Assembly (NCBI GenBank): GCA_021773635.1
Contig: JAJFJV010000017.1
Span: 62,001 to 126,000 of the forward strand
Direction: 5' to 3'
DNA: 64,000 bases
Source of the DNA: Gammaproteobacteria bacterium
GTDB lineage: Bacteria; Pseudomonadota; Gammaproteobacteria; HK1
The notes beneath the pieces were generated by a model that saw nothing but the letters and a program-made list of their open reading frames with translations, did no database searches and was not told the DNA's origin. The position numbers and the translations under genes are program-made. Below are positions 31,703 to 62,210 of this stretch, piece by piece; the stretch's first letter is position 1, and each line of letters opens with the position of its first letter.

Positions 31703-32581
31703 TTAAGCTAAATCCAGGCCCTTCAGGTAGGCACGGAATTCATCCTTCACTTCCGCATGTTCCAAGCCATATTCCACCGCCGCCTCCAGATAGCCCAGCT
31801 TGTTACCGCAATCGTAACGGCGACCATGAAAACGCCATGACAACACCCTTTCCTCGGCAAGTAGCGCGGCGATACCATCGGTAAGCTGGATCTCTCCGCC
31901 GGCGCCTTTCCCGGTAGTCGCCAACAGCTCCATGATGCGCGGCGTGAGCACATAGCGTCCCACCACCCCCAGAGTAGAGGGCGCCACCGCCGGTGCGGGC
32001 TTTTCCACGATGGCGTCGATGCAACTGGTGCGTTCATCAATGGGGGAAATGTCGACGATGCCGTACTTATCGGTATCGGCACGATTGATCTCCTCCACTG
32101 CAATGACACTGGACTGCTCACGCTCGAAGATCTCGACCATTTGCGAAAGACAGCCCTGCTTGCCTCCATTGATCAGATCGTCGGCAAGAATCACGGCAAA
32201 GGGCTCGTCGCCCACCACCGGACGCGCACAAAGCACCGCATGACCGAGGCCCAACGGCTCAGCCTGACGGATGTAGATACAATTAATGCCTGCAGGCAGA
32301 GTATCCCGGGCCTGCGCCAATAGCGCGTGCTTGCCGCCCTGCTCCAGCTCACTTTCCAGCTCGTAAGCCTTGTCGAAATGGTCCTCGATAGAACGCTTGG
32401 TACGGCCAGTAACGAAGATAAGATCGGTAATCCCGGCCGCCACCGCCTCTTCCGCGGCATACTGAATCAGTGGCTTATCCACCACTGGCAGCATTTCCTT
32501 GGGACTCGCCTTGGTAGCCGGCAAAAAGCGGGTACCCAGACCGGCAACAGGAAATACCGCCTTACGTACGCGAGCGCTCAT
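31703..32581 (-). CDS. galU: UTP-glucose-1-phosphate uridylyltransferase
   Basis: A 292-residue GalU that makes UDP-glucose from UTP and glucose-1-phosphate. The nucleotide-binding N-terminus reads [18 protein letters not shown], and EKP-type residues occur in [12 protein letters not shown]. Length is typical. It overlaps the upstream dehydratase gene by four bases (ATGA) and is the last gene of the polysaccharide locus before a T-rich terminator. It supplies activated glucose for surface polysaccharide. Confidence 0.95.
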
Positions 32582-34461
32582 CGCCGCACCTGCTCAAGTG
32601 GCACCACGTTGGATTTATCATCCTCCGGGCTACGGGAAAATTCCGGCACTAACTTGCTTAATAACATATCGAGTTCCTTGTCATTTTCGCCCTCAGCGAT
32701 CTCAATCATCCGCGTGATGTCATCCAGGCAACGGTCCCAGTGGCGCTCCCGACAACGAGCAAGTAACAGCTTGTCCCGTCCCGTGGCCGTCAAGCCCTCC
32801 TGTTCATGGAACAACTCCTCAAACATTTTCTCGCCAGGACGCAGACCGGTATAAATAATCTCTATCTCTTCGCCCAGGATCTTTCCAGACAGCGCAATCA
32901 TCTGCTCCGCCAGATAACTGATACGAATGGGCTCGCCCATGTCGAGTACAAAGATCTCACCGCCCTTACCCACCACCGATGCTTCCATGATCAGCTGGCA
33001 GGCCTCGGGAATGGTCATGAAATAGCGGGTGACCTCCGGGTGGGTAACTGTCACCGGGCCACCAGCGGCAATCTGCCGGCGAAATAGCGGCACCACACTG
33101 CCCGCGGAATCCAGTACATTGCCAAAACGCACGGTGACGAAATGGGTGGTTGCCCCCTGACTGCTTTTTCCCTGACAGAAAAGCTCTGCCACCCGTTTGC
33201 TCGCCCCCATCACATTGGTGGGGTTCACCGCCTTGTCAGTAGAAATGAGGAGAAAAGTGCTCACGCCGTGGCGTATCGCGGCTTCGGCAAGATTGCGAGT
33301 ACCCCGAACATTGTTGCGTACCGCCTGGCGCAGACGGGTTTCGAGCATGGGCACATGCTTATAAGCCGCAGCATGGAAAACGAAGTCTGGTTTGTGGGTC
33401 GCCAGCACACGCTCGATGCCTACCGCATCGCCCACATCACAGAGACAAACGCGTAACGCCTGCTCGGGAAAGCGTTCCTGTAACTCCCCCTCGATGCGAT
33501 AGAGGTTGTATTCGCTATTATCCAACACCACAAGAATGGCGGGGTTTATTTCAGCAATTTGTCGGCAGAGCTCAGAGCCGATGGAACCCCCACCACCACT
33601 TACCAGCACCACCTTGCCCGAGATACCAGCACGGATGCCATCCCAGTCCAGCGCAACAGGTGCGCGCCCGAGCAAGTCTTCAATAGAAACCTCGCGCAGT
33701 TCCTTTATTGCTGCCCGCCCAGAGACCAGATCCTGCATCCGCGGCAAGGTGCGAAAAGGTACACCCGATTTTTCACACAGCCCCACGAGGCGACGCATTT
33801 GTCGTGAATTGGCGGTAGGCACGGCAATCAGAATGAGATCGATATTCATCTGCTTCACCAGCCGCGGAATACGCCCACACCGCCCGGCAACACGCACACC
33901 GTGGATCTCCTGCCCTGATTTCTCCCGATCATCATCCACAAAGGCGACCGCTGAATAACCATGATCGCGATCCCGCAGCAGGTCCCGCACCAGCATTTCA
34001 CCGGCATGGCCCGCCCCCACAATCAATACCTTGTGCTCAGCCAATTGATAAAGGTGGTGCTCCTTCATCCAGCGATAGATAAGCCGCGGACCGCCAAGGA
34101 AAATACCCAATAACAGCGCATAAATGGGAAATACCGAGCGTGGAATCCCCTCCATACGGGTCAATACAAAAAGGGTCACGGCCGAGAGAGAAATACCCAC
34201 CACTACGGCCTTGAGGATACGCAGGAGATCGGGCACCGAGGCGAAGCGCCATACCCCGCGATAGAGGCCAAAACGCCAGGATGTGAGCCCTTGAACCAGA
34301 ATCACCACCGGCAGCGCACCAAGCGCGGGCTGAAGTACTTCTTCAGGAATAGAATCGAGATTAAAACGCAGCCAGTAGGCCCCTATCCACGCCACTGGAA
34401 CCATCAGGAGATCGTGAGAAAAGGCAGCCCACCTACTTCTAAAATGATTGATAATACTCAC
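32578..34461 (-). CDS. wbpM: Membrane-bound UDP-GlcNAc 4,6-dehydratase (WbpM/PglF/CapD type)
   Basis: A 627-residue protein with four N-terminal membrane helices, a first Rossmann (CoA/NAD-binding-like) domain starting [17 protein letters not shown], and a C-terminal extended SDR domain starting [15 protein letters not shown]. The catalytic stretch is [16 protein letters not shown], where the usual Tyr of YxxxK is Met, as in WbpM and PglF. These enzymes make UDP-4-keto-6-deoxy-GlcNAc, the precursor of D-QuiNAc, D-FucNAc and bacillosamine. WbpM at the end of the cluster matches P. aeruginosa B-band loci. Start is GTG and overlaps the stop of a small membrane ORF (GTGA). Confidence 0.93.
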
Positions 34462-40178: not shown

Positions 40179-42644
40179 TCAATATGTTCGCCTTAATTCT
40201 GTTACTGCACTTTTTCCTATATTGGATGTTATATCTATATCTTCTTCTGCCGTTTTCTCTGGTGCACAGAGCCTAGAAAGAAGCACTCCCCAAAGGAAGA
40301 ATGTGATGATTCCGGGATAAGGTTGTCTCAAACCAACCGTGAGCGAGTTATCGACCAGCACCAGAAACAGCACCACTCCTATTAATGCACAAAGCCCCGG
40401 GTTGTCTAAAACTTCCTTCCAGTTTCTCCCCGTCTTCCACAACGTGAACGCAATGAGCCATAAAATCGGACCCAGTGCGACCAGGCCAAAATTGTAGATA
40501 AAATCCAGATAATAATTATGCGCACTTGGATATAGCTTGCGGTCTGGAGGTCTTTGGTGCCCAAATGCCACTTTGTAGTCACTGCTTACAATTTCATCGA
40601 TATAAAAGTTCCAGACTGGCATCCTCTCTGAAATATTTCGTGTAACAGAAACCGTACCATCATTCGCCTTCAAACTTCCGGAAGACAAAGATATCTTTCC
40701 TTCTTGGCGAAGAGTGTTCTCCACCACGGGGATGGCACCATAGGCTCCAGCTATGATCATCAACAACAGTAGCAGGGGATTCTTCCACTGTTTTCCGCGT
40801 TTATACAGTAACCAATATGCAAAAAACGTAGCGGCCCCAACTAAAAGCCCTCCTATTGTGAGAACCGACAGGGATAACATTGCGTATATACCCATGGGAA
40901 CTGACAGCATCATAAGTGCCGTCCGACACACTCTATCCGGCCAAAGTGAAAAACAGGAAAACGTGAAAGCGCATACCAGTATCATAGGCACGTATTGAAG
41001 ATGCTGATAGATACTGAAGATATACAGATAGGGCGTAAGGAAGGGAAAACCCTGCTCCCAGGTAGCAGCCAATTGAAGGGGGATAACCAATGCTATGACG
41101 TACAGAGAAGCCCTAGCAAGGCATCTCAAAACATTCGACCCTTTCCCATAAGTTTGCCCCAGAACAAGGGCCAGCATGGGCAAAATAAACTGAATCAGCA
41201 ATATGATCTTTGCCTGTTGCAAGCCTACACGATCATGCGTAGATAGCATGGACGATATGAGCATTAAACAAAAACACAGAAAAATCACAGATAGACTCAC
41301 GCGCGCACGATTATACTTTCCTATGAGAACAATCGTGCCATAGCAGACAAGCACTGAAATCGGTATGGGCAAACTACGAAGGTCGCCACCTGAATTAACT
41401 AAGGTAATAGCTCCGTCTATTATACGAGGCTGGTCCGAGAAGATTCCTCCTGTGAGCTGAAAAAATAAAGGGAACAGGAGGCCAACTGCGATAGCTATTC
41501 CGAAGATCGGAGCGCCAGTAACGATAATTTCCCTGCCCGACTGGGCAGTCCAGTACGCACTAAAATAAAATATCATTGCGATAACAGCGTTGATGAGAAA
41601 TAGCCAGCTCAGAGCCCCTATTCCCAGCAACGCATAAGCGTACGGTACGACAGCTACGATAAAGATGTTGGTCAGTAAATCGGGGCCAAATACATCTCTA
41701 TCGCCCTGGTGCTGGAGCAATCGAAGTCGGAGACGCTGTGCAAATACCATCACGGCACCCCCAAGAAGGGACGCCCCGATGGCCGACCAGAATACTGCTG
41801 GCCTTCCCAATTCCGCTAGTACCCACCAGTCTGCCATCGAGACAAAAACCAAGCCTGTTCCAATACTCACACTTCCAAGCAGAGCTAGCTTAAGCCAGTT
41901 GGGAATCTCACGTATTCTTCCTTCTCGGGCGTGAAAAACAAGTGTTGGACCGAGAGCCTGCGAGAAAATTGTTCCAAGCATACCCCCGATGGCGAATGCA
42001 GTGAACAAATTCCCCGCAAACATCTTGCCGACAAGCGATAAAATCACCAGGCGGAATACAAAAACTGTAACGCCACTAATAACTGTTGAGCCAAAGTGGG
42101 GAAGCATATATACCCAACCAGAATCTAGCAAACTCGCCGAACGCAAATAACTTCTCAAAAAGTTGCCGTAGGACACCACGGGAACTATAGCCCACAGAAA
42201 AATACCAAGAGACCAGAATGGGCTGCCAAAGACAATCGATATAATGGCAACAGCAAGAAGAAGCGATTGTATTGCAGTAAACCATAGAGCAGAGCCATAA
42301 TTTCTCTCGTACTCTTTGCGAGCCAAGTAGACCTCCGATATCCACTCCGAACAACGTCGCAAAACCAGTGCCAACGCAAGCAGCGGTGTAGCCTCAGTCA
42401 CATAAAGGCTGACAATCAAAGCCACTTCTCCCAAAGGGACCAGCAGAATTAAGCGTGACCTCAGTATATGGAGCCACGATATCTTCGATGAATCTCGCAA
42501 AATGACGCTACGCGCATTGGCTGAAAATGCGAGAAAAACCGCTAAGGTAACTCCCTGTACAATGGCGATCTCCGCGGCCAGCTCCGGTTTTCCCATAACC
42601 CCTGCGGCAATCAGCAGAATCGTCATAGAAGAGCCGTTCAGCAA
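40179..42644 (-). CDS. Wzx-like flippase fused to Wzy/WaaL-like polymerase or ligase
   Basis: An 821-residue protein, far longer than either family. Residues 1 to about 390 look like a Wzx/MATE-type flippase (repeated helix pairs, with YLARKEYERNYGSALWF and a loop REGRIREIPNWLKLALLG). From about 400 to 800 a second set of helices ends with PSAHNYYLDFIYNFGLVALG, a motif of O-antigen polymerases/ligases (HNxxLD). Both halves are in one frame without a stop. The start is TTG; the hydrophobic frame stays open some 22 codons further upstream (YLFPLAFLLNGSS) but without a standard start codon, so the N-terminus could be longer or mutated. A 184-base gap separates it from wzx. Confidence 0.75.
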   Translation of the reverse strand: MLNGSSMTILLIAAGVMGKPELAAEIAIVQGVTLAVFLAFSANARSVILRDSSKISWLHILRSRLILLVPLGEVALIVSLYVTEATPLLALALVLRRCSEWISEVYLARKEYERNYGSALWFTAIQSLLLAVAIISIVFGSPFWSLGIFLWAIVPVVSYGNFLRSYLRSASLLDSGWVYMLPHFGSTVISGVTVFVFRLVILSLVGKMFAGNLFTAFAIGGMLGTIFSQALGPTLVFHAREGRIREIPNWLKLALLGSVSIGTGLVFVSMADWWVLAELGRPAVFWSAIGASLLGGAVMVFAQRLRLRLLQHQGDRDVFGPDLLTNIFIVAVVPYAYALLGIGALSWLFLINAVIAMIFYFSAYWTAQSGREIIVTGAPIFGIAIAVGLLFPLFFQLTGGIFSDQPRIIDGAITLVNSGGDLRSLPIPISVLVCYGTIVLIGKYNRARVSLSVIFLCFCLMLISSMLSTHDRVGLQQAKIILLIQFILPMLALVLGQTYGKGSNVLRCLARASLYVIALVIPLQLAATWEQGFPFLTPYLYIFSIYQHLQYVPMILVCAFTFSCFSLWPDRVCRTALMMLSVPMGIYAMLSLSVLTIGGLLVGAATFFAYWLLYKRGKQWKNPLLLLLMIIAGAYGAIPVVENTLRQEGKISLSSGSLKANDGTVSVTRNISERMPVWNFYIDEIVSSDYKVAFGHQRPPDRKLYPSAHNYYLDFIYNFGLVALGPILWLIAFTLWKTGRNWKEVLDNPGLCALIGVVLFLVLVDNSLTVGLRQPYPGIITFFLWGVLLSRLCAPEKTAEEDIDITSNIGKSAVTELRRTY

Positions 42645-53466: not shown

Positions 53467-55611
53467 TTACTGGAGGCAAACTTCGATGAGATTAGCAATT
53501 TCTGTCGCACGGATTTGATGCCGCAACGATATTGGCCACTCACCCCCCTTTTGGAGCACCTCTGAAAATGCGATCAACTCTTCCTTTTGACCCTTATCTT
53601 CTTTTCTTCCATCTAAATGCCAATCACCGAATCCGACGACATCAAGGCAGCTATAATCGTCGAGTGAAATTACTTTCCCATCACAAAAAATGTCTAATTT
53701 TTCTTTTGGATAAGCTGTTGCACCCAGCGCTGTATAGGTAAGCGTAGCTACTGAACCATCCTGGAACCTGATGGTGGCAACAAAATTATCGGTTCGACTA
53801 TAGTGGCCCGTTGTAGGTTTGATGGCGATCGCATCGACCGATTCGATATCGTGGTCCACAAGATAAAGGAATGCATCGTAGACATGGCATGCCTCGCCCC
53901 GATTACGTCCACCGCCCTCCTTGGAGTGAACCCAATGGTCGAGTGGAATGTAACCTGCATTCATTCGATAGTTGAGGATCATGGGGTTGGTACGATCTCG
54001 AACCAACTCGCGAATTTGTCTCATATGACTCGAGAAGCGCCGATTAAATCCTGTCATTAGCACCGGAATGGATGCATCATCATCTATATCTAAAAAGAAC
54101 TGTTGGATCTCAACCAGTTCATCCTGCGTAAGTGCAAGAGGTTTTTCCACAAGAACATGCTTTCCTGCCTTAAGGGCTGCCAGAACCATAGGTGCGTGCA
54201 GGTCGTGTCTTGTGGTAATAAGCACTGCATCAATAGCAGGGTCTTTCAGAACTTGTTCATACTCAGTCGTTGCATAATTTGCCCCGTATTGTTCCGCCGC
54301 TGCCTTGGCATTGTGGCCCGTACGACTAACGATGGCCTGCAAATGATAACGGCTAGACAAGGACTGAAGAAATGGAAGATGCATCAGCTTAGCGTAGGAG
54401 CCGGCACCTACAACGGCTATGCGTGTGCGATCCGTAGACGACGGGTGTGCCCGTATATTATCGATGCGGCGCCCCAAAGCCTGACCATCTGCAACATCAG
54501 CGTAGCGAAGCAGCACCATGAAAGGACGTCGCTCCTGGTCCGCAAGAGCTTCGTAGGCTTCGCGTGCATCAGCCAGAGGATAAACGACGTCAATACATGG
54601 CCCAACCTTTAGTTTTGCTTCCGCTAACAAGCGCAAATACTCGACCATGTTTCGATTCTCAGTCCAACGAACATAGCCGATTGGATAGTCCAATCCTTCC
54701 TCTTCATAGCGCTGTTCATATCGACCGGGTCCGTATGAAGTTGAAATTAAAAAATCCAGCTCCTTGGCATACAAGTCCCCGCGATTGAGATCCAGGCCAA
54801 CATCACCAACAAGTACCACCCGGCCTTTTTTACGGCACATCTTAAATGCAATGGACACCACTTCATCCGAAGGTGTTGCCGCAGTGATAATGACCCCATC
54901 CACACCGAAGCCATCAGTCAATCGAGCTGTCTTCGTCACCGCATCATCTACGCCGGGATGAATGCCAACATCCATGCCAAGTTCCAGCCCAAGCTGAACC
55001 CGCTCCGACTCAAGGTCCATGCCGATTACACGACAACCATTAGCTTTCAGAAGCTGAATAGTCAGCTGGCCAATAGCTCCTAGACCGACAACAACAAAAG
55101 TCTCTCCAAGAGTCGGCTGCGCCCGGCGGACGCCTTGAAGGGCAATGGCACCCAGGGTTACAGTGCTGGCCTCGGCAAAGCTCAATTCATCGGGTATTGG
55201 CACCGTAAGATTGCGCGGCACACGGATGACTTCCGCGTGAAACGCGTATTCCGATCCGGCACATGCAACGCGATCACCAACAGCTAAGTCAGTCACACCT
55301 GCACCGATCTCAAGTACTACTCCGGCAGCAGAATAACCGCTGGGTCGGACGGCGGTGGTTCGGCTCCTAATCTCACTGTGGGCACGCTTGAATCCCTGCG
55401 CTGCTACCATCTGCATCGCCTTCTTGACGTTCTCTGGCTCTTTCAGGGCACGCTTCCACAGTGGAATACCGCTAGCCCTGACGCCACTCATCTCAGTACC
55501 GATGGAAATACAGGAGTGATCCACGCGCACGAGAACTGTGCCCGCTTCCACGCAGGGTGCCGGAATGTCCGCTAACAGCGCCTGACCTTTCTGGATTAAT
55601 ACCTGTTTCAT
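53467..55611 (-). CDS. Two-domain dehydrogenase: zinc-type alcohol dehydrogenase plus Gfo/Idh/MocA
   Basis: A 714-residue fusion seen in polysaccharide loci. Residues 1-360 are a medium-chain dehydrogenase (VGDRVACAGSEYAFHAEV, then VVVGLGAIGQLTIQLLKANG), and residues from about 395 are a Gfo/Idh/MocA domain (RIAVVGAGSYAKLMHLPFL, VLVEKPLALTQDELVE). Together they may oxidise and reduce a sugar or cyclitol at different positions. It is a well-known but poorly characterised bi-domain family, frequently next to heparinase and AsnB genes as here. Confidence 0.9.
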   Translation of the reverse strand: MKQVLIQKGQALLADIPAPCVEAGTVLVRVDHSCISIGTEMSGVRASGIPLWKRALKEPENVKKAMQMVAAQGFKRAHSEIRSRTTAVRPSGYSAAGVVLEIGAGVTDLAVGDRVACAGSEYAFHAEVIRVPRNLTVPIPDELSFAEASTVTLGAIALQGVRRAQPTLGETFVVVGLGAIGQLTIQLLKANGCRVIGMDLESERVQLGLELGMDVGIHPGVDDAVTKTARLTDGFGVDGVIITAATPSDEVVSIAFKMCRKKGRVVLVGDVGLDLNRGDLYAKELDFLISTSYGPGRYEQRYEEEGLDYPIGYVRWTENRNMVEYLRLLAEAKLKVGPCIDVVYPLADAREAYEALADQERRPFMVLLRYADVADGQALGRRIDNIRAHPSSTDRTRIAVVGAGSYAKLMHLPFLQSLSSRYHLQAIVSRTGHNAKAAAEQYGANYATTEYEQVLKDPAIDAVLITTRHDLHAPMVLAALKAGKHVLVEKPLALTQDELVEIQQFFLDIDDDASIPVLMTGFNRRFSSHMRQIRELVRDRTNPMILNYRMNAGYIPLDHWVHSKEGGGRNRGEACHVYDAFLYLVDHDIESVDAIAIKPTTGHYSRTDNFVATIRFQDGSVATLTYTALGATAYPKEKLDIFCDGKVISLDDYSCLDVVGFGDWHLDGRKEDKGQKEELIAFSEVLQKGGEWPISLRHQIRATEIANLIEVCLQ

Positions 55612-57011: not shown

Positions 57012-58262
57012 TTAATTAACAATACGCGGTTCCGGCATGGGCACAATGAACTTCCCACCCTGATCGTGGTAGCGCTGATGCTGCTGCATAATGCTCTCGG
57101 CAAAATTCCAGGCCAGGACCACGACAAAGTCCGGGTGCTGCTCGTAAATCGCCTCTGAAGGAAGCACTGGAATATGGTGTCCGGGACTGAAAAGATTCTG
57201 TTTCAGGGGATTATCATCGACAATAAAATCCAGCACACTCCCGAGCTCGAAATGGGTCAGTAATGTCGTTGCCTTGGTTGGTGCACCATAGCCGGCAATA
57301 GACTTTCCCTCTGCCTTTAGCCCATTCACAAGCTTGCATAAATCCAGCTTGACGCCTTCGATGCGTTGACCAAAGGCCACGAATGATTCTTCCCTGTCGA
57401 GTCCCGCCTGCTTCTCGACTTCCATCAGTTCCGATACAGAACTTCGTACCTGGTATGGCCCATCCTTTCTTTGTGTAATCACCCGAATGGAGCCACCCTG
57501 AGGACTGATACGCTGAACATCTATCACATCCAGTTCCAGGGATGAGAAAAACGCCGTCAGCGGAGCCAGCGAATGGTAATCCAGATGCTCATGATAGATG
57601 GTGTCGAACCAGGCATTCTCATAGACATCTAGCAGATAACCCACCTCGATAACAAAAAGCCCATCATCAGCCAGCCAATGCTTGACACCCTCGACCACCC
57701 CTCTCAGATCATCTATGTGAGCACATGCATTGTGGCTCGTGATCAGCTTCGCTGAACCGTAGGCGTCCCGCCACTTTCTAGCGTGCCTGGCGGCAAAGAA
57801 TTCACAAACCGTATCGATACCACGCTCGCGCGCAATCTGGGCTATTTCAGTGGCAGGGTCTACACCGACGACACGACACCCGGCTTCCTTGAAGAAACTG
57901 AGTGCAGTTCCGTCGTTTGAACCTATGTCGACAACCAGGGCACCCTCGGGAATATCAAACTCCTGCTTCATATGGTGGGCATACTGACGCAGATGCTCGA
58001 CAAAAACGGGCGACGTCGCCGAAACATAAGAATAATTTCTGCGATACAGGATTTCCGGGTCAACCACATGCCCGAGTTGCACATGGGCACAGTCCCGACA
58101 GAAGTAGAGCTCCAAAGGATAAGCCTGTTGAGGCTCATCACATTCATGAGCCTCAACGAAATGGTTTCCGGGAGGAGTCGGGGTCAGTTCAATGACACGC
58201 GTCAGATCGTTGCCATCACATAGCCGGCAGCGGTCCCTGAAATAATAGCCATCTACAGTCAT
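57012..58262 (-). CDS. Sugar C-methyltransferase (zinc-finger plus SAM domain)
   Basis: A 416-residue protein: N-terminal zinc-binding part with CRLCDG and FCRDCAHVQLG, SAM domain with VVDIGSNDGTALSFFKEAG, and C-terminal C-methyltransferase domain with SIAGYGAPTKATTLL and VLAWNFAESIM. This three-part family includes NDP-4-keto-sugar C3-methyltransferases (TylC3, NovU-like) that make branched deoxysugars. The neighbour cupin (15-base gap) could be its partner isomerase or epimerase. EVGYLLDVYENAWFDTIYHE is the typical catalytic-site region. Confidence 0.9.
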   Translation of the reverse strand: MTVDGYYFRDRCRLCDGNDLTRVIELTPTPPGNHFVEAHECDEPQQAYPLELYFCRDCAHVQLGHVVDPEILYRRNYSYVSATSPVFVEHLRQYAHHMKQEFDIPEGALVVDIGSNDGTALSFFKEAGCRVVGVDPATEIAQIARERGIDTVCEFFAARHARKWRDAYGSAKLITSHNACAHIDDLRGVVEGVKHWLADDGLFVIEVGYLLDVYENAWFDTIYHEHLDYHSLAPLTAFFSSLELDVIDVQRISPQGGSIRVITQRKDGPYQVRSSVSELMEVEKQAGLDREESFVAFGQRIEGVKLDLCKLVNGLKAEGKSIAGYGAPTKATTLLTHFELGSVLDFIVDDNPLKQNLFSPGHHIPVLPSEAIYEQHPDFVVVLAWNFAESIMQQHQRYHDQGGKFIVPMPEPRIVN

Positions 58263-58277
58263 ACCAGAAGCTCGCCG

Positions 58278-58721
58278 CTAAACTTCGTAGGGAGTGGGGT
58301 CGAGGAGGTCTATACGAACCGTATCGGCCTCGTAGGTCGCCTGATCACGGGGATTACGACTGATGGCCAGAAGTTGGCAATCTTCCGTGAAAATCGTCGT
58401 GTGATCCTCCATCGGAGGCGTGAAAACCATATCTCCGGCATGCAGGGTAATCTTTGTTGGCTCTTCCTCGCTCCCGGTCGGCCGATAATAGTAATCGAAG
58501 GCGCCGGACAAGATGTACATGTAGTGCCAATCCGTCTTGTGGTAGTGGTTCGAACGCAACGTGCCCTTTTTTGATGTGATCAACGATACATTCTTGGACG
58601 GTAAATTGAGCAAACACTGTATCGATCCCCGCGCATCTGCGTGAGGCTCCTCAAGGGGCACTATCGGCTCATCCGGCCACGATGAAGAATCATCCAGTAC
58701 TGTATTTCGCCAGTCGTTCAT
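58278..58721 (-). CDS. Small cupin protein, likely sugar-nucleotide isomerase or epimerase
   Basis: A 147-residue one-domain cupin: SNHYHKTDWHYMYILSG is the first cupin motif with the two His of a metal or substrate site, and LHAGDMVFTPPMEDHTTIF the second. It resembles FdtA/WxcM-type or dTDP-sugar epimerase-type proteins, but family placement is loose. Because it directly precedes a sugar C-methyltransferase in the transcript, a role on the same 4-keto-sugar is likely. Confidence 0.8.
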   Translation of the reverse strand: MNDWRNTVLDDSSSWPDEPIVPLEEPHADARGSIQCLLNLPSKNVSLITSKKGTLRSNHYHKTDWHYMYILSGAFDYYYRPTGSEEEPTKITLHAGDMVFTPPMEDHTTIFTEDCQLLAISRNPRDQATYEADTVRIDLLDPTPYEV

Positions 58722-58828: not shown

Positions 58829-60454
58829 TCAATCGTCTTCGGGTTTTTTGAGCTCATCCCGACTCCAGGCTTCTATCGTAACCTGTCGCCCTCGCGCCAA
58901 GGTCAGTTTGTCTTCTGGCGCATCCCGCGTAATCGTGGAGCCTGCACCGATAATAGCGCCTGCGCCAATGGCTACAGGGGCTACTAGCTGGCATCCGGAA
59001 CCAACGAATGCACCCTCACCAATGGTGGTCGGTTGAGTCTTCTTGCCGTCAAAATTGCAGGTGATTGTTCCGGCACCGATGATCACATCATGGCCGAGCG
59101 TCGCATCACCGATATAGGCATGATGGTTGATCTTTGATCCTGAACCGATAAGCGATTCCTTCACTTCAACAAAATTACCAATTTGCGCCCCGTTTTCAAC
59201 GCGGGTTCCCGCCCGAATTCGGGCGTAAGGACCAATGATACAATCTTTTCCAATATCCGCCGATTCAACGATTGAGTTGGTGCGAATATTGGTGCCCTTG
59301 CCTATAGCGCTATCCTCGAGAATACAATTCGATTCAACTGCAACGCCGTCCGCCAGCGTTACCGTTCCTTTCACAATAACATTGCAGTCAATCGTCACAT
59401 TGATACCCACCGACAATTTTCCACGAATATCAACGTGTTCCAGATTACCCGACCCGCCTTTTTCTTTTCTCTCCTGATTCGACATCTTGGCCTCCAAGAG
59501 GCCAACAAGATTGGCCTGATGCGTGGCAGCTCCCCAGAGCCTTTTACGCAGTTTCACATCGGATGTTGCCGATGCAAAATTCGTTAACATCTCAGCAAAG
59601 GCATTGGCCGATTTGATTCGAATCTGCTCCTCCTGGCCACGCTGATCGCGCAAAAGTATGTGCGATTCGTAGTCTGGGGATTTCGAGAAGATGCGATCGG
59701 CCCAAACAGATTTTTTTTTGCCCCAGACAGATACCTCGTTACGGTAGGCACGACCAAAGCCCCACTCTAGGGAAGCGACCTCCCCTCCCGGGAACTCAAG
59801 CGTTGCGTGCCCCCCTCTATCAACCTCGTCATTGGAAGACTTGTCGAGCCTGAACGAGCTTACTCGTGGCAAACCATCAATCAGTTGACCGGCAAGGGAA
59901 ATTGGATAGCAGGCAACATCCAGAAAGGCTCCACCGCCCAACTCAGCAGAACTGCGAAAGCCGGGATTTTCCAGTAGAGGCATACCAAACCAGCAACTAA
60001 GCGCCTCGACACCACCAAAATCTCCCGCCCGGGTCAAATCTGACAGGGACTCAAATTGCGGGTGAAACTGATACATGAAGGCTTCAGACAGGGCAATCCC
60101 CTCACATTGGGCTGCATCAATCAGGGCAAGTGAGCGTTCAGCCCTGTCCGTGAGTGCCTTCTCACAAAGCAGATGTTTGCCAGCCCTGATGACCGCGAGT
60201 CCCTGCTCGTAGTGCAGCCCGATTGGCGTACAGAGGTAAATTGCATCCACATCTTCTGAACTCAGCATTGCCGCGGCATCTGGCCAGACAATTCCTCCCC
60301 ATCTGTCGGCCGCCGCCCGTGCATTTTTCTGATTCCGGGAACAGACACCAGCCAACTCAACCGCATTGCACACATCAATCGCGGGAAGAATGTTCTTCTC
60401 TGCATGGTAGCCAACACCCCATATAGCCAATCGCACTGGAAATTGTTCAGGCAT
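58829..60454 (-). CDS. Gfo/Idh/MocA oxidoreductase fused to a GlmU-like N-acetyltransferase
   Basis: A 541-residue fusion. Residues 8-335 form a Gfo/Idh/MocA NAD(P)-dependent sugar oxidoreductase (AIWGVGYHAEK, then HLLCEKALTD with E98-K99). Residues from about 337 are a left-handed beta-helix very similar to the C-terminal half of GlmU: GPYARIRAG, NFVEVKES, SKINHHAYIGD and GAGTITCNFDG. Comparing with E. coli GlmU, the catalytic His363 corresponds to His444, and the conserved Arg (YARIR), Lys (VEVK), Tyr (AYIGD) and Asn-Phe (CNFDG) are kept. It should therefore be able to N-acetylate an amino sugar. The start overlaps the transferase stop (TGATG). Product unknown. Confidence 0.9.
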   Translation of the reverse strand: MPEQFPVRLAIWGVGYHAEKNILPAIDVCNAVELAGVCSRNQKNARAAADRWGGIVWPDAAAMLSSEDVDAIYLCTPIGLHYEQGLAVIRAGKHLLCEKALTDRAERSLALIDAAQCEGIALSEAFMYQFHPQFESLSDLTRAGDFGGVEALSCWFGMPLLENPGFRSSAELGGGAFLDVACYPISLAGQLIDGLPRVSSFRLDKSSNDEVDRGGHATLEFPGGEVASLEWGFGRAYRNEVSVWGKKKSVWADRIFSKSPDYESHILLRDQRGQEEQIRIKSANAFAEMLTNFASATSDVKLRKRLWGAATHQANLVGLLEAKMSNQERKEKGGSGNLEHVDIRGKLSVGINVTIDCNVIVKGTVTLADGVAVESNCILEDSAIGKGTNIRTNSIVESADIGKDCIIGPYARIRAGTRVENGAQIGNFVEVKESLIGSGSKINHHAYIGDATLGHDVIIGAGTITCNFDGKKTQPTTIGEGAFVGSGCQLVAPVAIGAGAIIGAGSTITRDAPEDKLTLARGRQVTIEAWSRDELKKPEDD

Positions 60455-61473
60455 CAGGCATTTTCCCGTAACGGCCCGTTACGCAGCGAAAACATGATTA
60501 TGGGAAGACAGGCAATGATCGTGAGCAATGGTGCAATCTCGTGCCTCCAGACAGACAGCGCGGCAAGCGGGATTAGCCAGAAAACCTCGATCAGCAGCAC
60601 CAGCCGAACCACCTTCAAATGGTCGTCCCAGATGCGCGCAAGATTCTGGTAAGCGTGGCTACGATGTGCGCGATACCATTTTTTCACAGTAACCACCCGA
60701 ATCAGTATCGTAACAGTGGTATCAACCACGAAATAGCCGAGTAGAATCAACCAGGTCCAGAGGCTCATGCTGTCTCGCCATAGTGATCCGAGAATCAGCG
60801 CCACAATGGTATATGAAAAAAAGCTGCTTCCCGAGTCACCGAGAAATACCTTTGCCGGAGGCCAATTGAAATATGCAAAGCCCGCACTGGCTGCAAAAAC
60901 CAGCGCGGCCAGTAGCGCGAATTCATGGTCATTGTTAATGAATAGGATAAGCATTGCTGCCCCGGTCACATACAGCGTCCCGGAAGTGGCCATGCCATCG
61001 ATTCCATCCATAAAATTAAACAGATTGAAGAACCAGACCATTGCCAATACAGCGGCAATATCCCCAGGCCAACCGAGCTGAATGCTGCCCATACCCAGCC
61101 CAAGGGGAGGCAGACCTCCAAACCAGTAAATAATCCAGACCGCTGCGGCAAACTGTACAAGCAGACGCGAAAGTGCCGGCAACTCAAATTTGTCGTCGGC
61201 GAATCCTACGAGCGCGAAGACCAGCCCACCTACAAAAAATATCAGGATATGTAGGTACTGAATAAGCCCTAACCGGTACCCGATCAGCACGGCAACAAGG
61301 TTGGTGGCAGCAACCACCATCCCCCCCCCACGCGGGGTGATCCCTGGATGAAGACTTCTATAGTTCGGGACTGCGTGAATGTGCAGCCGGAGAGCCAGTT
61401 GCGGGTAGTAAAAGTTAGCTACGAGAGAACAAACAAAAACGGTGCCTAGCAATATAGCGATTGTAATGGTCAC
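60454..61473 (-). CDS. wbpL: Undecaprenyl-phosphate sugar-1-phosphate transferase, WbpL/WecA family
   Basis: A 339-residue membrane protein with 10-11 helices of the polyprenyl-phosphate GlcNAc-1-phosphate transferase family. Motifs: RGGGMVVA, VGFADDKFELPALSR (the DDxxD-like Mg site), NLFNFMDGIDGMATSG, AKVFLGDSGSSFFSY, and the HRSHAYQNLARIW loop, which is closest to WbpL/WbcO enzymes. It would start each repeat unit on undecaprenyl phosphate, probably with a UDP-6-deoxy-HexNAc. It follows the PIG-L gene after 41 bases. Confidence 0.92.
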   Translation of the reverse strand: MTITIAILLGTVFVCSLVANFYYPQLALRLHIHAVPNYRSLHPGITPRGGGMVVAATNLVAVLIGYRLGLIQYLHILIFFVGGLVFALVGFADDKFELPALSRLLVQFAAAVWIIYWFGGLPPLGLGMGSIQLGWPGDIAAVLAMVWFFNLFNFMDGIDGMATSGTLYVTGAAMLILFINNDHEFALLAALVFAASAGFAYFNWPPAKVFLGDSGSSFFSYTIVALILGSLWRDSMSLWTWLILLGYFVVDTTVTILIRVVTVKKWYRAHRSHAYQNLARIWDDHLKVVRLVLLIEVFWLIPLAALSVWRHEIAPLLTIIACLPIIMFSLRNGPLRENA

Positions 61474-61514: not shown

Positions 61515-62210
61515 TCAGCAAAAATCACCCGGATTGAATAAACGAAACGGCGCCTGAAATGCCTCTGCAAGTTGAATACCCGCCTGGCTACCGCGCAGAG
61601 TTGCCAGTGAACGTACAACTTCCTTGCTACGGGGATGTGGATACTCTCTCAGAATCCCGCGATAGCACGCCAGAGCATCCAGTTTTTTCTGTAACAATTC
61701 TTCGCCTATCTCACAAAAGGTCTCGGCTCTGAATTGATCGCCTCCAGCACCAAAGGTCCATTCAGTACACGACAGAATCTCCATGAAATAGAGGGCTTTC
61801 AATGCCGGCACATCGGGTCTGCGCTGGAAAAGCCTCGCTGCTGCCTGACAAGCCCTTGATGTCTGTACATGATCATCGTTGAGATCGGAGGGGTGATGTG
61901 TAAACAACACGTCCGCGCCGGTCTCCAGCATGGCTGCCTCGATGAACTGGACTAACTCCAGGTGAGCAACAGTATTGAGTTTAATATTCGGAAAGTTTCC
62001 GACAATAGGTTCACCCAACCCGAGTATGCTCCGTGCACGCTCCATATCGGCATATAGCTCATCCAGCTCCGGGCGTTCCCGGCGCGCCGCTGCCTGACCG
62101 GATAAAATGCAAGACCTCACCGAAAGACCTTGTGCTGCAAGCAGAGAAGCGGTGGCACCACAACCCAGCACCTCATCATCCGGGTGGGCAACAACAATCA
62201 AGATGTTCAC
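61515..62210 (-). CDS. PIG-L family N-acetylglucosamine deacetylase
   Basis: A 231-residue PIG-L (LmbE-like) zinc hydrolase. The N-terminal AHPDDEVLGCG contains the metal-binding His-Pro-Asp-Asp, and THHPSDLNDDH supplies the further His. Such enzymes remove N-acetyl groups from GlcNAc on lipid or nucleotide carriers. It is the first structural gene after the ops element. Having a deacetylase and an N-acetyltransferase-fusion in the same locus suggests the acyl group of an amino sugar is exchanged, but this is inference. Confidence 0.92.
   Translation of the reverse strand: MNILIVVAHPDDEVLGCGATASLLAAQGLSVRSCILSGQAAARRERPELDELYADMERARSILGLGEPIVGNFPNIKLNTVAHLELVQFIEAAMLETGADVLFTHHPSDLNDDHVQTSRACQAAARLFQRRPDVPALKALYFMEILSCTEWTFGAGGDQFRAETFCEIGEELLQKKLDALACYRGILREYPHPRSKEVVRSLATLRGSQAGIQLAEAFQAPFRLFNPGDFC

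Follow-up and report, generated by a model that had tools for sequence, protein, structure and literature searches.

Which reaction is to be expected of a protein in which a sugar oxidoreductase runs, within one reading frame, into the acetyltransferase half of GlmU, and would such a protein still act on GlcN-1-P? The window analysed here, a stretch of 64,000 nucleotides, holds a gene of this kind at 58829..60454 on the minus strand. It consists of one uninterrupted reading frame that encodes 541 aa, and the fusion of a Gfo/Idh/MocA ketoreductase domain with a GlmU-type acetyltransferase domain in this frame is real. Pfam models place GFO_IDH_MocA at residues 8-123, its C-terminal domain at residues 136-249 and hexapeptide repeats thereafter, in agreement with the initial annotation, which had described the N-terminal part as a Gfo/Idh/MocA oxidoreductase. 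On the minus strand, the KijD10-like NDP-sugar 3-ketoreductase domain, named after its KijD10 match, occupies residues 1-330 (~5-330; 59465..60454), the hydrophilic linker MSNQERKEKGGSGNL residues 324-338 (59441..59485), and the GlmU-type left-handed beta-helix acetyltransferase domain residues 339-536 (58847..59440). The ATG of the fusion gene overlaps the TGA of the WecA/WbpL-like gene 5' of it (TGATG), and the two are thus probably co-translated.

It is unlikely that two separate proteins are involved, fused only by assembly or sequencing or with the acetyltransferase made from an internal start. Such a start could lie at codon 324 (window 59485), an in-frame ATG just 5' of the GlmU-type domain with GGAGG 5 nt upstream and the sole in-frame start of the whole ORF with a GGAGG-type motif, and the absence of the fusion from every other genome searched also fits this explanation. 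However, one frame reads both domains with a plausible hydrophilic linker between them, the other two frames yield no better domain ends, on which ground a frameshift between the domains was provisionally rejected, and the KijD10-like homologue extends beyond the residue equivalent to codon 324. Judging from the motif, it is possible that codon 324 gives an additional, free acetyltransferase product of ~24 kDa.

For the oxidoreductase half, the best PDB match is the sugar 3-ketoreductase KijD10 (E 3.5e-39 over residues 5-318), a dTDP-sugar enzyme of Actinomadura kijaniata (PDB 3rbv, 3rc1) which matches the whole N-domain, including both catalytic residues. In the alignment to 3rbv, K99 and Y183 of the fusion are aligned with K102 and Y186 of KijD10, the residues mutated in structures 3rc7 and 3rcb, and the components of the KijD10 type, namely a Rossmann domain (PF01408) and a Gfo/Idh C-terminal domain (PF22725) with the Lys and the Tyr, are present. 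The closest unfused homologue found (genome G027, 39% identity) is encoded directly 3' of an NDP-hexose 2,3-dehydratase (PF03559, E 2.5e-61, 207 bits), in a cluster that also holds RmlA, RmlB and a WecE-like transaminase. Actinobacterial plasmids carry five other relatives, likewise in NDP-deoxysugar clusters and in three cases directly after a 2,3-dehydratase, so that each of the six relatives with an inspected neighbourhood is in such a cluster and four adjoin an NDP-hexose 2,3-dehydratase. The KijD10 match and the clusters of the relatives together argue for an NDP-deoxysugar ketoreductase and not a general sugar dehydrogenase, and the N-domain is predicted to be a KijD10-type ketoreductase for NDP-deoxyhexoses, which sharpens the original oxidoreductase assignment. 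Nevertheless, KijD10 is a single-domain enzyme of a dTDP-2,6-dideoxysugar pathway, whereas no NDP-hexose 2,3-dehydratase was detected in the source genome of the fusion using the PF03559 model that scores 207 bits in G027. The sugar nucleotide handled by the fusion is probably UDP-linked. Another Gfo/Idh/MocA domain is found in the window as part of a 714-aa protein (53467-55611), where it is fused with a zinc-type alcohol dehydrogenase, and an AsnB-like gene adjoins.

The acetyltransferase half is matched by the GlmU model TIGR01173 over residues 339-534 (E 5e-70). The match covers model positions 255-450 only, which are the acetyltransferase half, and the score is 236.6 against a cut-off of 366.85. 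This result bears out both the identification of the C-terminal part with the acetyltransferase half of GlmU and its placement in the GlmU type rather than the PglD/WbpD type. The domain is 50% identical to the GlmU of the source organism itself and 46-50% identical to the acetyltransferase halves of the E. coli, S. pneumoniae and M. tuberculosis enzymes, and its PDB matches reach E 1e-55, so that the similarity greatly exceeds what chance would give. It has in common with GlmU the whole left-handed beta-helix, the C-terminal tail, the catalytic His/Glu and the acetyl-CoA residues. Unlike GlmU, the fusion has a Gfo/Idh/MocA domain in place of the N-terminal uridyltransferase (NTP transferase) domain, carries replacements of N377 and K392, and is located in a polysaccharide locus. 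In the AlphaFold2 monomer model, the Rossmann and beta-helix parts are confident and the middle domain is poor (mean pLDDT 67.6); the pocket would be that of a trimer.

To compare residues, the acetyltransferase half of the fusion was aligned with 51 GlmUs including that of E. coli. R414, K432, H444, Y447 and GAGTITCN correspond to R333, K351, H363, Y366 and the loop of E. coli GlmU, and all GlmU residues named in the initial annotation are therefore present; His444 (59123..59125, minus strand) stands at the position of the catalytic base H363. Among the 24 columns that are invariant in up to 51 GlmUs, 22 are kept in the fusion, including E349, K351, H363, Y366, N386 and A423, and the near-invariant R333, A380, S405 and R440 are kept as well. 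The catalytic Glu is E349, and the acetyl-CoA residues are A380, S405, A423 and R440, the latter two as in the E. coli GlmU structure. The Glu/His pair has been described as the key catalytic residues of GlmU, and Ser and Ala positions as contacts to acetyl-CoA (PMC11947611). The sole losses in invariant columns are N377, which is replaced by Ile458 (59081..59083), and K392, which is replaced by Thr473 (59036..59038; both minus strand); these positions are Asn and Lys, respectively, in 51/51 GlmUs. In a modelled V. cholerae GlmU, six polar contacts to GlcN-1-P were reported, R330, K348, Y363, N374, N383 and K389 (PMC12345230), which are R333, K351, Y366, N377, N386 and K392 in E. coli. Four of the six are kept in the fusion, and both losses are substrate contacts; if losses were random among the invariant columns, the chance that both would be GlcN-1-P contacts is 0.036. 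The earlier statement that active-site residues are kept is thus correct for the catalytic residues but not for N377 and K392, exactly the two positions absent from its list.

The source genome also carries an ordinary full glmU, which adjoins glmS and ATP synthase (atp) genes. In a domain tree, the domain of the fusion falls outside the GlmU clade of its own genus, on a long branch (length 1.07) that emerges close to the base of the proteobacterial GlmUs, its exact position being weakly supported. A recent copy of the native glmU was ruled out on this basis, and the tree suggests that the domain is an old or imported paralogue rather than a fresh copy. The loss of two GlcN-1-P contacts, together with the presence of a normal glmU, indicates a paralogue that would not be a GlcN-1-P enzyme. 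An amino sugar, perhaps in the form of a sugar-1-phosphate, was the substrate proposed in the initial annotation; on this view the C-domain would still N-acetylate GlcN-1-P, or a nearly identical sugar-1-phosphate, as an additional GlmU-like source for the polysaccharide locus. This proposal could draw on the retained equivalents of R333, K351, Y366, N386 and H363, and on the ability of a GlmU acetyltransferase half to work alone, since a C-terminal fragment of M. tuberculosis GlmU acetylates without the uridyltransferase half (PMC4619583). However, the Ile and Thr at two contacts that are otherwise constant, the complete GlmU encoded elsewhere in the genome, and a partner domain from an NDP-sugar family make it very improbable.

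A change of substrate is the simplest reading of the alignment, in which the only invariant positions changed are on the substrate side: acetyl transfer would be kept, with a different sugar as acceptor. The C-domain is accordingly described here as probably a GlmU-derived paralogue that is still an acetyl-CoA-dependent acetyltransferase. The loss of two invariant pocket residues and the long branch in the tree could also be expected of a domain that no longer catalyses any reaction and acts for the ketoreductase as a trimerisation scaffold. We give this explanation little credence, because the catalytic His/Glu and all acetyl-CoA-contacting residues are kept, the other invariant columns are intact, and a retired domain is not expected to lose substrate-side residues only.

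How unusual is this architecture? A search for the domain pair, as had been suggested along with the first description of the gene, gave no second GlmU-type fusion in 55 relatives or in 369 class, 398 phylum and 17 order genomes (overlapping sets). None was found among plasmids (80% coverage), among viral contigs, or with seed peptides in 84,980 species, a search that would miss distant copies and in which near neighbours of the source genome were perhaps left out. The GlmU-type fusion gene has thus been seen in one genome. Two candidates were rejected: an apparent fusion (L007, 231-530 in the match table) is an ordinary GlmU, and a 258-aa GlmU fragment (G314) results from a contig edge.

The claim that no enzyme with this combination has been described holds in so far as no other GlmU-type fusion was found, but fusions of Gfo/Idh and acetyltransferase domains of the WbpB-WbpD type do exist. 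One is encoded on contig 5 of the same genome (L128:11427-13007), with a WlbB-like acetyltransferase half (3mqg, E 4e-62), and a full-length, single-frame counterpart is found on the Azospirillum plasmid NZ_CP029830. These proteins share with the GlmU-type fusion the fold classes and their order, with Gfo/Idh first and a left-handed beta-helix sugar N-acetyltransferase after it. However, both of their halves come from other families, and the C-domain of the GlmU-type fusion is 27% identical to the WbpB-WbpD protein of the same genome over 171 residues. In addition, a WbpE-type aminotransferase follows the WbpB-WbpD fusion of the same genome, whereas none adjoins the GlmU-type fusion; in the wbp pathway, the order of action is WbpB, WbpE and WbpD (PMC4031482). 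The layout of Gfo/Idh plus left-handed beta-helix N-acetyltransferase is therefore already known, and what is new is its assembly from KijD10-like and GlmU-like halves.

The neighbouring genes bear on the sugar that may be made. Upstream of the fusion on the minus strand are a WecA/WbpL-like polyprenyl-phosphate sugar-1-phosphate transferase (60454..61473; PF00953 2.1e-32; ECA_wecA 1.1e-24, below cut-off) and a PIG-L family de-N-acetylase (61515..62210; PF02585 1.3e-15). Downstream, also on the minus strand, are a 147-aa cupin that is a candidate sugar epimerase (58278..58721; Cupin_2 1.2e-7; Polysacc_synt_C 9.4e-6, below cut-off) and an NDP-sugar 3-C-methyltransferase of the mycarose/kijanose type (57012..58262; PDB 4rv9, E 1.4e-95; TcaB9 3ndi, 2.3e-67; Methyltransf_13/14), closest to the 3-C-methyltransferases for mycarose and kijanose/tetronitrose-type sugars. 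The cupin/C-methyltransferase pair recurs in two genomes (G134 and G260) at ~50% identity (50-54% for the cupin homologues beside the C-methyltransferase), and is followed there by an epimerase/dehydratase-like SDR and a separate Gfo/Idh protein. The Gfo/Idh proteins near the pair elsewhere are distantly similar to the fusion N-domain (23%). Seen in three genomes in all, the pair (window 57012-58721; L133, L134) resembles a module for making a branched sugar, for which no product has been named. A PglF/WbpM-type UDP-GlcNAc 4,6-dehydratase (32578..34461, minus strand; PF02719 1.2e-111) probably supplies a 4-keto-6-deoxy amino sugar, and the wider locus also holds an FnlA-like, RmlD-like and WecB-like set. 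At 40179-42644 of the window, an 821-aa membrane protein has a flippase-like first half and an O-antigen polymerase/ligase-like second half, a possible fusion noticed by eye only.

The PIG-L enzyme is the sole obvious amine-exposing enzyme in the gene run of the fusion, and no aminotransferase is found near the fusion, with DegT matches on contigs 5, 11 and 14 and none on contig 9, to which the window belongs. Deacetylase and acetyltransferase fusion stand close together in the same run. The 3-keto substrate and the amine have no certain source, because the genome lacks a detectable 2,3-dehydratase and the gene lacks a nearby aminotransferase. As a speculation, the amine could be exposed when PIG-L deacetylates a UDP-GlcNAc derivative, or be introduced by an aminotransferase encoded on contig 5.

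Considering these results together, we regard it as on balance probable, though by no means certain, that the protein is a bifunctional ketoreductase/N-acetyltransferase for a surface deoxy-amino sugar and no longer serves GlcN-1-P. First, the N-domain would act on a nucleotide-linked deoxysugar as an NAD(P)H-dependent reductase of a keto group, which is most likely the one at C-3. Second, the C-domain, as a trimer with acetyl-CoA and with His444 as base, would N-acetylate an amino group on this intermediate or on one that follows it in the pathway; the sugar pocket of the C-domain would have been re-specialised by N377I and K392T, with GlcN-1-P no longer a substrate. We infer that both halves work in a shared pathway and that the substrate is nucleotide-linked rather than a 1-phosphate. 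With the downstream cupin and 3-C-methyltransferase, the product would probably be a branched deoxy-amino sugar for O-antigen or exopolysaccharide. Virenose of Coxiella, also a gammaproteobacterium, has been proposed in silico as a TylCIII-type 3-C-methylated LPS sugar (PMC3539893), and this precedent and the neighbourhood make a 3-C-methyl deoxy-amino sugar a reasonable guess. The sugar is thus perhaps 3-C-methylated, and any naming of the exact sugar is speculative. A fuller scenario, which we offer tentatively and consider rather doubtful, is that the acetyltransferase domain of a GlmU was separated from the uridyltransferase, became linked to an NDP-deoxysugar ketoreductase and was re-specialised to N-acetylate a branched (3-C-methyl) nucleotide-linked amino sugar; neither this bifunctional enzyme nor, probably, the sugar would have been described before.

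GlmU is an essential and highly conserved housekeeping enzyme and an antibiotic target. The fusion provides a natural paralogue of its acetyltransferase in which the catalytic residues are kept and exactly two invariant substrate contacts are changed, and is therefore a ready experiment on how the pocket chooses its sugar. For the organism, the fusion gene suggests that an unusual sugar is present on the surface, which may be a 3-C-methyl amino sugar.
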